Notes under the pieces: model-generated
Databases searched by the model: none
Told to the model about the DNA's origin: nothing
Seen by the model: only the letters and a program-made list of their open reading frames with translations
IMG/VR virus record: IMGVR_UViG_3300044922_000704
Span: 1 to 21,437 of that record
Length of the DNA: 21,437 nt
Origin: a virus
Direction: 5' to 3' (one strand)
Program-made: the position numbers and the translations under genes
Shown here: positions 1,522-4,931 of the stretch, in pieces
Position numbering within the stretch: position 1 is the stretch's first letter
Layout: every line of letters begins with the position of its first letter

Positions 1522-1734
1522 GTGAAAAAATCCCAACTCTGGAAAATATACTGCGCAAAAAATCCCGCATTCGAGCGTGATGGAAATGTTACTTTGTCAA
1601 CGCGCGGCCTGCGCAAACTCTTTGATCAGACATGGGACTTGGCTCTACACGAAGGCGAAGAGGAGAACGAAGCCCCGCCGGTCACCGACTCAAAAGGCGT
1701 TGCAGACCTTATGAAAATCTTCGGGATGTCCTAA
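1522..1734 (+). CDS. Small phage protein of unknown function
   Basis: A 70-residue protein that starts at a GTG 3 bp after the terminase stop, so it is probably translationally linked to it. No Shine-Dalgarno sequence precedes it. The N-terminus is basic (MKKSQLWKIY), the middle has an acidic patch (HEGEEENEAP), and the C-terminus ends in ADLMKIFGMS, which looks like a short amphipathic helix. I do not recognise a family. Its position next to terminase suggests a packaging-associated or head-joining role, but this is inference only. A 12-bp tandem repeat begins directly after its TAA stop. Confidence 0.7.
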   Translation: MKKSQLWKIYCAKNPAFERDGNVTLSTRGLRKLFDQTWDLALHEGEEENEAPPVTDSKGVADLMKIFGMS

Positions 1735-1782
1735 CCTTTCCCCGAACCTTTCCCCGAACTTTTCCCCGAACTTTTCCCCGAA
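1735..1782 (+). repeat. Four tandem 12-bp repeats
   Basis: Four adjoining copies of a 12-bp unit, CCTTTCCCCGAA twice and then CTTTTCCCCGAA twice, begin at the base after the stop codon of the preceding gene. A partial fifth unit (CCCG) follows. The two halves differ by one C/T change, which suggests stepwise duplication. The repeat lies at the head of the longest non-coding gap in the window (1735-1941). It might be an iteron-like protein-binding array or simple slippage expansion; the sequence cannot separate these. Confidence 0.9.
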
Positions 1783-1854
1783 CCCGCCCGCTGAGCTAGG
1801 TTTTAAGCGGCTCCGCAAGCCACCAAAATTATTTTCATTTTCTTGAAAAAAAGT

Positions 1855-1884
1855 TGTTGACGAAAAATCAAGTTGGTGAGATTG
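1855..1884 (+). promoter_or_regulatory. Possible promoter upstream of the small-gene cassette
   Basis: The gap 1783-1941 is AT-rich relative to the rest of the window and contains TTGACG at 1855-1860, with GATTGT 17 bp further on at 1878-1883. That resembles a weak sigma-70 pair with a good -35 and a poor -10. A short hairpin (GGCT-CCGCA-AGCC) lies upstream near 1809-1821. The location before a run of small coupled genes makes a promoter plausible, but the -10 match is weak. Confidence 0.25.
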
Positions 1885-1941
1885 TATCTCCAGATCGAAG
1901 GCACCACGCCGACGACGAAAACAAAAAACCAAAACGACAAA

Positions 1942-2181
1942 ATGAACCTTATGAACACTCCACTTCAAACGCTCCGCGCAGCGTTCGACAAATGCGCCAA
2001 CCAAACAGATTGGAAAGCTCCAATCGATTTCATCACCAGCAAGGCTTTCGCCTCCTTCCCAATCGAAGTGTATGCGGAAGCGATCAGCCACTTCACAGCA
2101 ACCACAGCCAAGATCACTGATCTCGGCGACGGCGCTGTTCGCATTCAAGCAGCCGGATACCGGAAAGGCCCGGCTTGGTAA
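1942..2181 (+). CDS. Small hypothetical protein (79 aa)
   Basis: I chose the ATG at 1942 (protein begins MNLMNTPLQTLR). The frame extends up to a TTG at 1873, but that stretch is A-rich leader-like sequence and encodes low-complexity residues; an ATG at 1951 is an equally possible start. No Shine-Dalgarno sequence is visible; the leader is A/C-rich. The protein looks soluble and mixed alpha/beta, with a C-terminal ITDLGDGAVRI-type strand pair. No family is recognised. It is the first gene after the repeat and possible promoter. Confidence 0.6.
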   Translation: MNLMNTPLQTLRAAFDKCANQTDWKAPIDFITSKAFASFPIEVYAEAISHFTATTAKITDLGDGAVRIQAAGYRKGPAW

Positions 2182-2190
2182 TGACCACCC

Positions 2191-2213
2191 GGCGCGGGTT
2201 CGATCCCCGCGCC
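2191..2213 (+). other. tRNA T-arm-like hairpin without a complete tRNA
   Basis: An 8-bp perfect stem (GGCGCGGG / CCCGCGCC) closes a 7-base loop TTCGATC, which is the T-loop consensus (T54 T55 C56 R57 A58). It is followed by ACCA, so the end looks like a tRNA or tmRNA 3' end. I tried to fold the upstream 80 bases into an anticodon arm, a D arm and a matching 5' acceptor strand, and could not. It is therefore a T-arm mimic, a tRNA remnant, or a captured tRNA 3' end. It lies 17 bp before the next start codon. Confidence 0.6.
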
Positions 2214-2230
2214 ACCAACCCACGACAAAA

Positions 2231-2392
2231 ATGAAAACCAACGACCGAAGCCTCTACAATTCGCTGGCCTGCCTCGTGCTCCTCGGCAAAGAACTGAAAA
2301 GCACGCTTGAAGACCTAGCCCTCGCCCTCCAAAAATCCGAAGAAATCCTCCTCGCCCAAAACCTCAAAACCTCCACCCGCTCGAAAAAATGA
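2231..2392 (+). CDS. Small hypothetical helical protein (53 aa)
   Basis: The ATG at 2231 follows the T-arm-like hairpin and an ACGACAAAA leader. The product is short and likely almost all alpha-helical: the core LACLVLLGKELKSTLEDLAL followed by ALQKSEEILL has leucine-rich heptad-like spacing. The C-terminus is basic (STRSKK). The gene overlaps the next by the ATGA arrangement, so translation is coupled. The family is not recognised; a small oligomeric or membrane-peripheral helix protein is possible. Confidence 0.6.
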   Translation: MKTNDRSLYNSLACLVLLGKELKSTLEDLALALQKSEEILLAQNLKTSTRSKK

Positions 2393-2664
2393 AAACGCTA
2401 ACACCGCAAGAACAAGACGAAATTGAAAACCTCACCTATCTGACGCCACCGGAAGATCAAGGCCACCCACATTGCGCAGGGCAGGCGATATGGGATGACC
2501 TCGCAGTCATTCGCCGATGGGATTGGGATGACAATGGCGGCAGACTCTCAAACACCCGTCACGAATATGAGGTTTACAACTGGGAAGGCGAAGACGAAGA
2601 CCCCGCTTTTCAAACCCTGACACTCGGCAAACTCGTCGCAAAATTCATCGTTCCTACAAAATGA
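2389..2664 (+). CDS. Acidic hypothetical protein (91 aa)
   Basis: Starts within ATGA at the stop of the previous gene and ends in the same arrangement with the next gene, so it sits inside a coupled string. The product is acidic: I count 18 Asp/Glu against 8 Lys/Arg, concentrated in RRWDWDDNGG and EGEDEDPA. It is also rich in tryptophan and tyrosine in the middle. No family is recognised. Acidic small phage proteins sometimes mimic DNA or block host enzymes, but nothing in this sequence establishes that. Confidence 0.65.
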   Translation: MKTLTPQEQDEIENLTYLTPPEDQGHPHCAGQAIWDDLAVIRRWDWDDNGGRLSNTRHEYEVYNWEGEDEDPAFQTLTLGKLVAKFIVPTK

Positions 2665-2810
2665 AAACAGAAATCAAATTCCAAAAGATCGGCACCCGAG
2701 CCGTTGTCAGCAAAAACATCACGAAAGACCAAGCCGCCGAAATCCTGCAAAAAAATCCAACCCTCACCCAAGTGGACACCCCCTCCGGCTACTACCCGCG
2801 CCCGAAATGA
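2661..2810 (+). CDS. Very small hypothetical protein (49 aa)
   Basis: This frame has both start and stop coupled to neighbours: ATGA overlap at 2661 with the preceding stop and ATGA overlap at 2807 with the next gene. The protein begins MKTEIKFQKIGTRAVVSKN and contains a helix (KDQAAEILQKNP) and a C-terminal VDTPSGYYPRP. The double overlap and the codon pattern like its neighbours are the main support. No family is recognised. Confidence 0.6.
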   Translation: MKTEIKFQKIGTRAVVSKNITKDQAAEILQKNPTLTQVDTPSGYYPRPK

Positions 2811-2995
2811 GCAAGCCCACCACCCACGGCGGCCCGCGCAAAAATGCCGGCCGCAAAACCGGCAGCAAAAACAAAAACTCCAAAGGCCGAACGGCCATCA
2901 CCAGATCCGTCTCCATGCAACCGGAGAGCTGGCAAAAGCTCGACCGCGACCGAGGCGACCAGAGTCGCGGGAAATACATCGAGTCGAAATTGTAG
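2807..2995 (+). CDS. Possible ribbon-helix-helix DNA-binding protein (62 aa)
   Basis: The N-terminus carries HGGPRKNAGRKTGSKNKNSK, a basic Gly/Arg/Lys segment like the AT-hook-type tails seen at the start of many phage DNA-binding proteins. It is followed by TRSVSMQPESWQKLDRDRG, which fits a ribbon-helix-helix pattern of an RSVSM strand then a helix, and ends in RGKYIESKL. It could be a small regulator of the cassette. It is the last gene of the coupled string that begins at 2231 and is followed by a terminator-like hairpin. The family call is pattern-based and not certain. Confidence 0.55.
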   Translation: MSKPTTHGGPRKNAGRKTGSKNKNSKGRTAITRSVSMQPESWQKLDRDRGDQSRGKYIESKL

Positions 2996-2997
2996 CC

Positions 2998-3022
2998 AAA
3001 CTTCAAGCCACGCTTGAGTTTT
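2998..3022 (+). terminator. Terminator-like hairpin after the small-gene cassette
   Basis: AAACT-T-CAAGC and GCTTGAGTTT are complementary apart from one bulged T, giving about 10 base pairs around a 3-base loop (CAC), and the 3' arm runs into TTTT. The stem is only moderately GC-rich, so termination may be partial. It begins 3 bp after the stop of the last small gene, which fits an operon end. Confidence 0.5.
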
Positions 3023-3074
3023 AAGGCAAAATCTAAACATCCCGCCGACGGATTTGCCAAATTCCGCAAATCCT

Positions 3075-3104
3075 CCCTCTGCGTCTCCGCGCCTCTGCGG
3101 GAGA
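3075..3104 (+). repeat. Dispersed palindrome-type repeat (ETQRR-type)
   Basis: The segment around CTCTGCGTCTCCGCGCCTCT matches a dispersed intergenic repeat known from many high-GC bacterial genomes; when mistranslated on the opposite strand it yields peptides such as RGAETQRE and RGDAEGG, as it does here. In this window there is one copy, between the cassette terminator and the next gene. Its presence in a phage region suggests host-derived sequence picked up at a junction. The identification is from memory of the peptide signature. Confidence 0.55.
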
Positions 3105-3111
3105 TCCCCCT

Positions 3112-3134
3112 TTTGACACGCCCGCCGAGGCGTG
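3112..3134 (+). promoter_or_regulatory. TTTGACA/inverted-repeat start element, copy 1
   Basis: TTTGACA (3112-3118) overlaps an inverted repeat, CACGCC (3117-3122) and GGCGTG (3129-3134) around the loop CGCCGA. The GTG start codon of the next gene (3132-3134) forms the end of the 3' arm. The TGA in TTTGACA lies exactly 18 nt before, and in frame with, the GTG. The same arrangement recurs at 3403 and 7336. A function in start-codon masking is inferred, not shown. Confidence 0.55.
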
Positions 3135-3407
3135 ACCGACCTCGACAAAATCTCCGGCGTGAAATCCTTCCTCCGCCGCACCAAAACCACAGCGGAACTC
3201 GAAGCCCTCGCGCTCTCGACATTCGCGTCGGCCACCGAGGAAGTCGTCATCACATCCCTCGGCAGTGAAGGCGCCAGCAGCGCCGGACAAATCTCGTTCC
3301 CCAAGTGGCTCCTCCTGCAAGCCGTCGAAGAACTCCTGAGCGAAGGCACCCACGGCCGCCAGCTTTTCGCCATCGCCGACCGCTCCCGCTACGGCACCGC
3401 CGTTTGA
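3132..3407 (+). CDS. Hypothetical protein at the lambda W position (91 aa)
   Basis: GTG start lies within copy 1 of the hairpin start element. The protein starts MTDLDKISGVKSFLRRTKTT and ends with a helix LLLQAVEELL and RSRYGTAV. It lies directly before the portal gene, where lambda places the head-tail joining protein gpW, but I see no convincing gpW sequence match, so similarity is positional only. Its TGA stop (3405-3407) is in frame with the portal start at 3423, with 15 nt between them, and is followed by C and a hairpin. Confidence 0.7.
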   Translation: MTDLDKISGVKSFLRRTKTTAELEALALSTFASATEEVVITSLGSEGASSAGQISFPKWLLLQAVEELLSEGTHGRQLFAIADRSRYGTAV

Positions 3408-3425
3408 CACGCCCGCCTCGGCGTG
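3403..3425 (+). promoter_or_regulatory. TTTGACA/inverted-repeat start element, copy 2
   Basis: TTTGACA (3403-3409) contains the stop codon of the preceding gene. CACGCC (3408-3413) pairs with GGCGTG (3420-3425) across the loop CGCCTC. The portal start GTG (3423-3425) is inside the 3' arm. It matches copy 1 at 3112 except in two loop bases (GA against TC). Confidence 0.55.
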
Positions 3426-4931
3426 CCGTCGAAAATCAAAAAATCAAGTTGGGGAGGAACCCGCCCCGGAGCAGGCCGCCCGCGCAAGCCAGATGCCAAA
3501 GCCGCCGCATTTGAAGCCGCTCAACCTTCGCTGAATCGCGGCCTCATCTGGATTCCCACCACCGATCCGAAGCGCGAACTCACCGCGCACACCCGTCTTG
3601 AAATCCTCCGACTCTCGCGGTGGCTCTACAACAATGCCGCGCAGGCAACTTACATCGTCGAGCACCTCGCCCAGCGCGCCATCGGCACCGGCATCGTCGT
3701 CCAACCCAAAACCTCGAACCTCGCGTGGAACAAAAAGGTTGATCAGTATTTTGAGGATCGGAACTGCGCCGAGGCATGGGCATTCGATGCCGGCGCACAG
3801 GTCAATTTCTACACCGCGCAATCTCTCATCCTCCGCCAGGTCGCCATCGACGGCGATTTCTTCGCGCAATTTCTCAAGACCAAGGAAGGTGCCGCCCGCG
3901 TGCGCTTCATCGGCGGCGAGTCCATCGGCGGCTCGGCAGGCTACGGCAACCCGGACGACATGACCCACGACGGCGTGACGATGGACCGCTTCGGCGCCCC
4001 CGTCAGCTACACCCTCAATGCCGAAAACGGCACCCGTATTCCCGCCGAAGACATTCTCCACTTCCGCCACATCCGCCGCCACGCCCAGCCGCGCGGCGTT
4101 TCGTGGTTTCACTCCGCCGTCTCCAACCTCCGCGACATCTCCGAAATCAACGGATTCGTGAAGGGCGCGTATAAGGCCGGGGCGCAAATCGGCTACATGG
4201 TTACCAGCACCGAGGTCGCCAAGATCGGCCTCGGCGCTGGCTTGAAATCCACGACCAACGAAGTCGGCGACCTGCAAACCAGCGACCTCCCGAACGGCAT
4301 CCTCCTCCCCCGCCTCAAGCCAGGCGAAAAACTCGAAGCCTTCAAGAACGACATTCCCGGCCAGACCTACGAAGCCGTGATGCGCGCGCTCCGCTCGGAT
4401 GTCGCCTTCGCCGTCGGCCTGCCGCCCGAGGCCATGATGGTCAATGTCGGCCTCGCTGGCACCGAGCAAAGAGCCGTCCTCGAAGTCACGCAGAACTTCC
4501 TCGAGCGTCTCCAGCAGCAGGTCATCGATCAGTTCTGCCGACCCTTTTACAAGTATTGGCTCTGGCACGAAATGCAGGCCGGTCGTCTCGAATACCCCGG
4601 TGACGATTGGTGGCGCCACGAATGGCTCGCACCGAAAAAGATCACGGTGGACAGCGGCCGCGACGCCCGCGCCTTCAGCGAACAACTCGATAAAGGCCAC
4701 CTCTCGCCGACCCGCTATTTCAACATGCTCGGCCTCCGCGCCGAGGAGGAGGAAGAAGATGTGATCCAGACCTACCTCCGCCGCAAAGAAAAATGCGACG
4801 CCCTCGGCCTCGATGTCGCCCAGGTCTTCCCGAACTCCCTCCGCAGCGGCCTCGCCGCGCAACAACCCGCTGAATCAAGCGACGACGAGGACGCGGACGA
4901 AGTCACTCAACCCACCCAACAAACACCATGA
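3423..4931 (+). CDS. Portal protein, lambda gpB family
   Basis: Forms the dodecameric ring at one capsid vertex through which DNA enters and to which the neck attaches. The 502 residues match the lambda-type portal in length and pattern: RLSRWLYNNAAQATYIVEHL (about 64-83), AIGTGIVVQP, then a long conserved core with VSWFHSAVSN and LPPEAMMVNVGLAGTEQRAV. The tail is acidic (SSDDEDADE). An unusual feature is the N-terminus, which carries GGTRPGAGRPRKP (residues 11-23), a basic motif more usual at the start of small terminase subunits. No later in-frame Met or Val codon near the N-terminus gives a better start. It overlaps the protease gene by ATGA. Confidence 0.93.
   Translation: MPSKIKKSSWGGTRPGAGRPRKPDAKAAAFEAAQPSLNRGLIWIPTTDPKRELTAHTRLEILRLSRWLYNNAAQATYIVEHLAQRAIGTGIVVQPKTSNLAWNKKVDQYFEDRNCAEAWAFDAGAQVNFYTAQSLILRQVAIDGDFFAQFLKTKEGAARVRFIGGESIGGSAGYGNPDDMTHDGVTMDRFGAPVSYTLNAENGTRIPAEDILHFRHIRRHAQPRGVSWFHSAVSNLRDISEINGFVKGAYKAGAQIGYMVTSTEVAKIGLGAGLKSTTNEVGDLQTSDLPNGILLPRLKPGEKLEAFKNDIPGQTYEAVMRALRSDVAFAVGLPPEAMMVNVGLAGTEQRAVLEVTQNFLERLQQQVIDQFCRPFYKYWLWHEMQAGRLEYPGDDWWRHEWLAPKKITVDSGRDARAFSEQLDKGHLSPTRYFNMLGLRAEEEEEDVIQTYLRRKEKCDALGLDVAQVFPNSLRSGLAAQQPAESSDDEDADEVTQPTQQTP

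Follow-up and report, generated by a model that had tools for sequence, protein, structure and literature searches.

Why does an uncultured phage carry six small open reading frames (ORFs) between its terminase gene and a gpW-like gene, and do these form one system? The window, by which we mean the whole stretch of DNA that was analysed, is a virus record of 21,437 bases from a metagenome collection. An earlier note on this DNA described the six ORFs, four of them as coupled genes at 2231–2995, and likened the block to an inserted accessory (moron-like) unit. All six ORFs were found where it had placed them and are coding. The features of the region are listed here.

1–1518, + strand: terminase large subunit (GpA_ATPase; Pfam PF05876, 1.9e-50), left flank, truncated at its 5' end by the window
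1522–1734, + strand: orfA, 70 aa, GTG start, a backbone gene of the left flank, kept in empty relatives
1733–1790, + strand: left junction, an imperfect tandem repeat with units of about 12 bp, AACYTTTCCCCG, in the sequence from the orfA stop to the leader
1857–1885, + strand: promoter-like motif TTGACG-AAAAATCAAGTTGGTGAGATTGT, conserved, upstream of the cargo gene, with TTGACG at 1857–1862
1895–1915, + strand: 5' leader hairpin UCG-AA-GGC-ACCAC-GCC-GA-CGA, 26 nt before the cargo ATG
1942–2181, + strand: orfB, 79 aa, the cargo gene of the slot, with frame-specific codon usage
2191–2213, + strand: 3' T-loop hairpin (HP), GGCGCGGG-TTCGATC-CCCGCGCC, with an 8-bp stem, 9 nt past the cargo stop
2231–2392, + strand: orfC, 53 aa, pN/pS 0.40
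2389–2664, + strand: orfD, acidic, 91 aa, optional, ATGA overlap with orfC, pN/pS 0.18
2661–2810, + strand: orfE, 49 aa, optional, ATGA overlap with orfD, pN/pS 0.37
2807–2995, + strand: orfF, 62 aa, the final gene of the block and its most conserved one, pN/pS 0.36
3002–3022, + strand: stem-loop followed by TTTT, 3' of orfF, weakly terminator-like in sequence
3132–3407, + strand: small gene of the right flank, assigned to the gpW position by its place
3423–4931, after the gpW-position gene: lambda-family portal gene (PF05136, 1.9e-36)

The product of the gene in the gpW position has no Pfam match, and none of the small ORFs matched a known family. Tiling of the interval by codon usage picked the same ORFs, with an earlier start for orfB. 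The four ORFs that have homologues, orfC, orfD, orfE and orfF, are under purifying selection (pN/pS 0.18–0.40). No relative of orfB was found outside this phage, the only one in which its family is seen; its codon usage scores +0.30 per codon in its own frame versus −0.37 and −0.47 in the other two. The coupling of the four genes is borne out by three ATGA overlaps (orfC–orfD, orfD–orfE and orfE–orfF), and the acidic product described earlier is that of orfD, with 18 Asp/Glu in 91 residues. The AlphaFold2 model of orfD is beta-rich (pLDDT 68) and has no convincing match in the PDB. A DNA-mimic role for orfD was rejected, the fold match not being convincing.

The closest relatives of the window are other uncultured contigs, and a search of a phage collection with the window gave no near match. 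The nearest portals from isolates are about 25% identical to that of the window, one of them from a cultured Akkermansia phage, and a locus in a Verrucomicrobia MAG (L236) encodes a terminase 96% identical to that of the window. On account of these two similarities the host of the window phage probably belongs to the phylum Verrucomicrobia. Several loci (L004, L020, L158, L159 and others) have a portal 60–98% identical to that of the window and a terminase about 32% identical; these loci keep the cassette described below despite the different terminase, and the terminase has therefore been exchanged independently. A repeated hairpin, TTTGACACGCCCGCC(GA/TC)GGCGTG, is present in the window at 3112–3135 and 3403–3426. 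Its 3' arm holds the GTG with which the gpW-like gene or the portal gene starts, and related elements come after tRNA-Met in L147, L149 and L076. This hairpin is a possible translational control site.

About 300 related loci were fetched and their terminase-to-gpW-like intervals were compared. Across the 99 distinct regions from relatives this interval ranges from 57 to 2,774 bp; strict conservation in all relatives was looked for, and conservation is not strict. The empty relative L094 aligns to the window at 1400–1739 and 2987–3331 without 1740–2986, and has about 120 unrelated bases where the window carries the insert. Its alignment departs at 1739, within the repeats of the left junction (1733–1790). 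Another relative, L133, has an apparent deletion scar in which the 3' end of orfF is retained. The G+C content of the insert is 52.9%, against a mean of 60.3% for stretches of the same size elsewhere in the window, of which the lowest has 50.0%. The likeness to an inserted accessory unit is upheld by presence and absence among close relatives, near-exact boundaries, lower G+C, a promoter-like leader and hypervariable content.

The limits of the insert are narrower than the earlier note had drawn them. It counted orfA in the cassette; because empty relatives have orfA, this gene is part of the flanking backbone. The stem-loop at 3002–3022 also belongs to the backbone flank, since empty relatives carry a similar stem. 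The terminator-like hairpin reported after the block does exist as a stem-loop with four T at this place, but it is weak and falls under the threshold of the scan. The copy number of the AACYTTTCCCCG repeat differs among relatives. In four empty relatives (L098, L089, L018 and L094) a terminator-like ATTTTCGTG..CACGAAAT stem is found after orfA, and the interval between orfA and the gpW-like gene holds recurring inverted repeats of the TATACCTCATCNGGTATA type and no ORF. These repeats are perhaps an operator or a partition-like site.

Two elements frame the cargo gene, the first of which is the leader. The possible promoter before the block is backed by the TTGACG motif upstream of orfB, conserved in 50 of the 99 lineage-1 regions (lineage 1 is that of the window), but a scan for sigma-70 consensus promoters did not flag the motif at 1857–1885, and for this reason the promoter function of the leader is putative. 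The leader hairpin folds with a z of −2.7 in the window. Its stem covaries, with 8 double-change cells versus 1.8 in shuffles; the variants include GCC/GGC, GGC/GCC, GGGC/GCCC and CGGG/CCCG, and the stem is closed every time. The hairpin is found in 104 contexts in the fetched DNA, 99 of which have the 3' hairpin at most 1 kb away, and the reversed-sequence control gave 0. Leader and 3' hairpin are both present in 49 of the 99 lineage-1 regions, both are absent from 45, and one occurs alone in 5 (4/1).

The second element, HP, is absent from the earlier note and is the strongest and most conserved hairpin of the block. The fold of 2172–2236 around it has a z of −2.4, and its stem shows compensatory changes. 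HP is exact in 73 viral contigs, and with stem and loop changes allowed it is present in at least 139 distinct contexts, many of which were gathered by a search for the HP motif, which inflates its conservation; the initial collection of lineage-1 loci was made through their terminase and portal. When all fetched DNA was scanned for an 8-bp GC-rich stem with any 7-base loop after TAAC, only T-loop-like sequences were returned. In lineage 2, HP is followed by TTTTCTTTTTTTT, a T-run, and is therefore a classical intrinsic terminator there. The HP of the window has no T-run, and its role as a terminator in the window is thus doubtful.

Two other identities of HP were rejected. ARAGORN found no tRNA around HP in the window, and a partial tmRNA match scored 15.8 bits against a gathering score of 47; a tRNA or tmRNA fragment is also contradicted by the perfect 8-bp stem, which covaries as a closed hairpin. 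A common host terminator was rejected as well: of 288 Verrucomicrobiota genomes a single one has the strict pattern, and that match lies on a contig of phage origin. An exact HP is found at 436–459 of a Chthoniobacterales MAG contig (L235), where the usual gene context is absent; this copy is probably a chance occurrence or a relic. HP variants of the form GGCGAGGGTYCRATCCCC(T/G)CGCC occur upstream of a tyrosine recombinase gene in L168 and L191 and after a DUF932 gene in L169 and L251. These variants are possibly related to an attachment site.

The gene between the two elements is highly variable. In at least 129 HP contexts with a readable upstream gene, identical contexts having been merged within a redundant viral collection in which many contigs come from related samples, the slot upstream of HP holds at least 51 unrelated cargo families, and at least 53 families are found downstream of HP in the same contexts, a family being a blastp-connected set whose number depends on the cut-off of 1e-4. 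When units that differ in cargo are compared, identity starts from 1.0 at the ATG, sinks to the background level of about 0.3 within a few bases and remains at about 0.25–0.4 across the sampled ORF ends. It returns one base before the stop and is 0.9–1.0 at the stop codon and HP, the value in the HP columns being partly high by selection. Where measurable, pN/pS of the cargo families is mostly 0.07–0.47, which points to purifying selection; four families with a single near-identical pair gave no usable value. Pfam, PHROGs and PADLOC scans, run on 65 representatives drawn from the cargo and the downstream genes, gave no informative function; they returned nothing beyond isolated weak matches and PHROGs that have no known function.

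The four coupled genes do not behave as one fixed system, as orfC, orfD and orfE come and go independently. In 36 of the 99 lineage-1 regions orfC is the first gene past the 3' hairpin, and orfD is present at 16 viral loci. The constant part in the window's lineage is made up of orfF and the two hairpins; orfC to orfE are variable.

The unit is not confined to the window's lineage. In lineage 2 the gene order is terminase, one variable gene, HP, gpW-like gene and portal; the terminase and portal of one member (L245) are 24% and 25% identical to those of the window. Five cargo families are common to lineages 1 and 2, at 56–90% identity. Units also occupy other genome positions in phages whose terminase, capsid and replication genes are unrelated; these phages carry a head-tail connector of the PF12236 family (L216), a capsid of the SU10 type (L264) or DnaB and ERF genes (L270, L175 and L244). 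Cargo 91–99% identical to that of the window's lineage is present in one phage that has a PF12236 connector and in another that has DnaB. As cargo is up to 99% identical across unrelated phages, the cassette moves as a unit. Comparative sequence data establish an optional insert, constant elements on either side of the cargo ORF, near-exact replacement of the ORF from ATG to stop, presence in unrelated phages, and a terminator sequence in lineage 2.

We therefore consider it probable that the block is a moron-like mobile expression cassette for accessory genes, in which a single exchangeable ORF lies between constant RNA bookends. The promoter-like motif, the 5' hairpin and the A-rich start region of the leader would drive the cargo ORF, starting a separate transcript with the hairpin near the 5' end of the mRNA. 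The T-loop hairpin past the cargo stop would end the message, or protect and stabilise it. Co-infecting phages or prophages would recombine at the common bookends, swapping cargo while keeping the expression signals; we infer homologous recombination because the bookends are common to every unit. In the window's lineage the unit would be extended by the optional orfC to orfE, read through HP and end with orfF. Since the HP of the window has no T-run and the orfC–orfF operon lies downstream, transcription probably reads on to orfF. As to the cargo, our guess is that it most likely acts in phage–host or phage–phage conflict, as in anti-defence or superinfection exclusion; this is suggested by its hypervariability and small size and by nothing else.

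Loci of the acr-aca type combine variable inhibitor genes with a conserved DNA-binding regulator. The block may be such a regulated anti-defence locus, with orfF as a conserved autorepressor behind variable inhibitor genes, which we regard as possible though doubtful. In the window's lineage the small genes are variable and a conserved putative DNA-binding gene stands at the operon end: orfF is last and most conserved, being present in 52 of the 53 HP-bearing lineage-1 regions, and it tracks one promoter type (54/17/6/52), an association that is confounded by phage ancestry. The cargo also consists of small and varied proteins that lack homologues. Against this, orfF is missing from many units, among them most of lineage 2, no known inhibitor family was matched in the Pfam, PHROGs and PADLOC scans, and no homology to known acr-aca members was found. 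The product of orfF has a basic N-terminus, GGPRKNAGRK, followed by a possible ribbon-helix-helix layout, and its AlphaFold2 model (pLDDT 70) has helices at 39–49 and 54–61. The possible ribbon-helix-helix regulator of the earlier note keeps these two rightly placed helices, but Foldseek, PDB sequence search, Pfam and comparison with CopG gave no match; the fold stays a prediction because neither the PDB nor Pfam matched. In our view orfF is probably a small DNA-binding regulator, and perhaps regulates the leader promoter. An acr-aca reading could hold for the window's lineage but not for the unit as a whole.

Plain mosaicism would make the block a fast-evolving accessory locus with its own promoter and terminator, moved by nothing more than the usual homologous recombination between related phages. 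The two elements have evident roles in expression, recombination in the flanks needs no special machinery, and near-identical backbones carry different cargo. Against this account, which we think unlikely, the unit is found at other positions in phages that are unrelated in their terminase, capsid and replication genes, and cargo identity across such phages reaches 99%. The difference between it and the mobile cassette is mainly one of degree.

It is improbable that a phage or host machinery recognises both hairpins, as DNA or RNA, and replaces the reading frame exactly from start to stop. If true, such dedicated ORF exchange would be an integron-like, integrase-independent library of conflict genes for phages of one host group.

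A site-specific system like that of integrons, in which HP is the recombination site and a recombinase moves the ORF together with HP, appears slightly less probable again. The exchange of ORFs is nearly base-exact. Of 32 HP-linked genes, 18 end in GCCTAAC, versus 6 of 172 other genes of the same intervals, and this ending fits what we take to be the consensus of the attC R'' box. A tandem gene–HP array is present in L270 (HP at 410 and 681), and two HPs lie near each other in L191, L121, L091 and L293. Integrons and attC clusters have been described from phages (PMC9892861), and integron cassettes and CALINs likewise have one ORF with a 3' hairpin, variable cargo of unknown function and occasional tandem arrays. 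The identity of HP as an attC site was rejected, no paired R' box being found: GTTRRRY is present at most 120 nt 3' of HP in 6 of 124 contexts, with 2 in the control. HP is also a much shorter hairpin, of merely 23 bp with a 7-nt T-loop, and there is usually one unit per genome (one HP copy in 25 of 29 records, two in 3 and none in 1). Tyrosine recombinases (PF00589) are present in 17 of 27 records, but these could be ordinary phage integrases rather than the integron integrase IntI. Each unit further has a conserved 5' leader, an element for which integrons have no need.

It is very improbable that the block holds ordinary head-operon genes for structure or assembly, as the strand and the terminase–portal position of gpW-type head genes might suggest, the block being missing from close relatives with intact head genes, highly variable, and found elsewhere in unrelated phages.

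The mobile cassette remains to be placed among known systems. It resembles lambdoid morons in being an optional insert between core genes, with lower G+C, a promoter-like leader and, in lineage 2, a hairpin terminator. It differs in that every unit has the leader and the 3' hairpin, and in that several genes of the window lie past HP; we know of no lambdoid morons in which a single bookend pair is found across dozens of unrelated ORFs and unrelated phages. Judged from sequence, the definition of a moron fits, as an optional insert of distinct composition with its own signals, the promoter and terminator of the window being predicted ones.

The promoter-early stem-loop (PeSL) elements are mobile regulatory cassettes of T4-type phages (Arbiol 2010; Comeau 2014, via PMC4503421). 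Their conserved promoter and stem-loop motifs apparently let unrelated small ORFs shuffle between phages, and they are multicopy elements of T4-like myoviruses. The shuffled ORFs of the present cassette are likewise flanked by conserved promoter-like and stem-loop elements. The cassette differs in occurring in lambda-type phages (GpA_ATPase terminase and lambda-family portal) and others, usually in one copy, and in that one 5' element and a distinct 3' element enclose a single ORF, with a T-loop that hardly varies. The cassette would work like a PeSL but is not one, because it belongs to the wrong phage group and is usually present once.

If our reading is right, the two short RNA motifs can serve as bait for phage accessory genes in metagenomes. 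Any ORF between them would join a pool of dozens of unrelated small families, almost none of which has a known family. The near base-exact exchange boundaries make the mechanism open to experiment. The idea of mobile regulatory cassettes built from a promoter and a stem-loop would widen from T4-type phages to unrelated phages. For the phages of Verrucomicrobia, the slot would be a good place in which to look for new anti-defence and superinfection-exclusion proteins.
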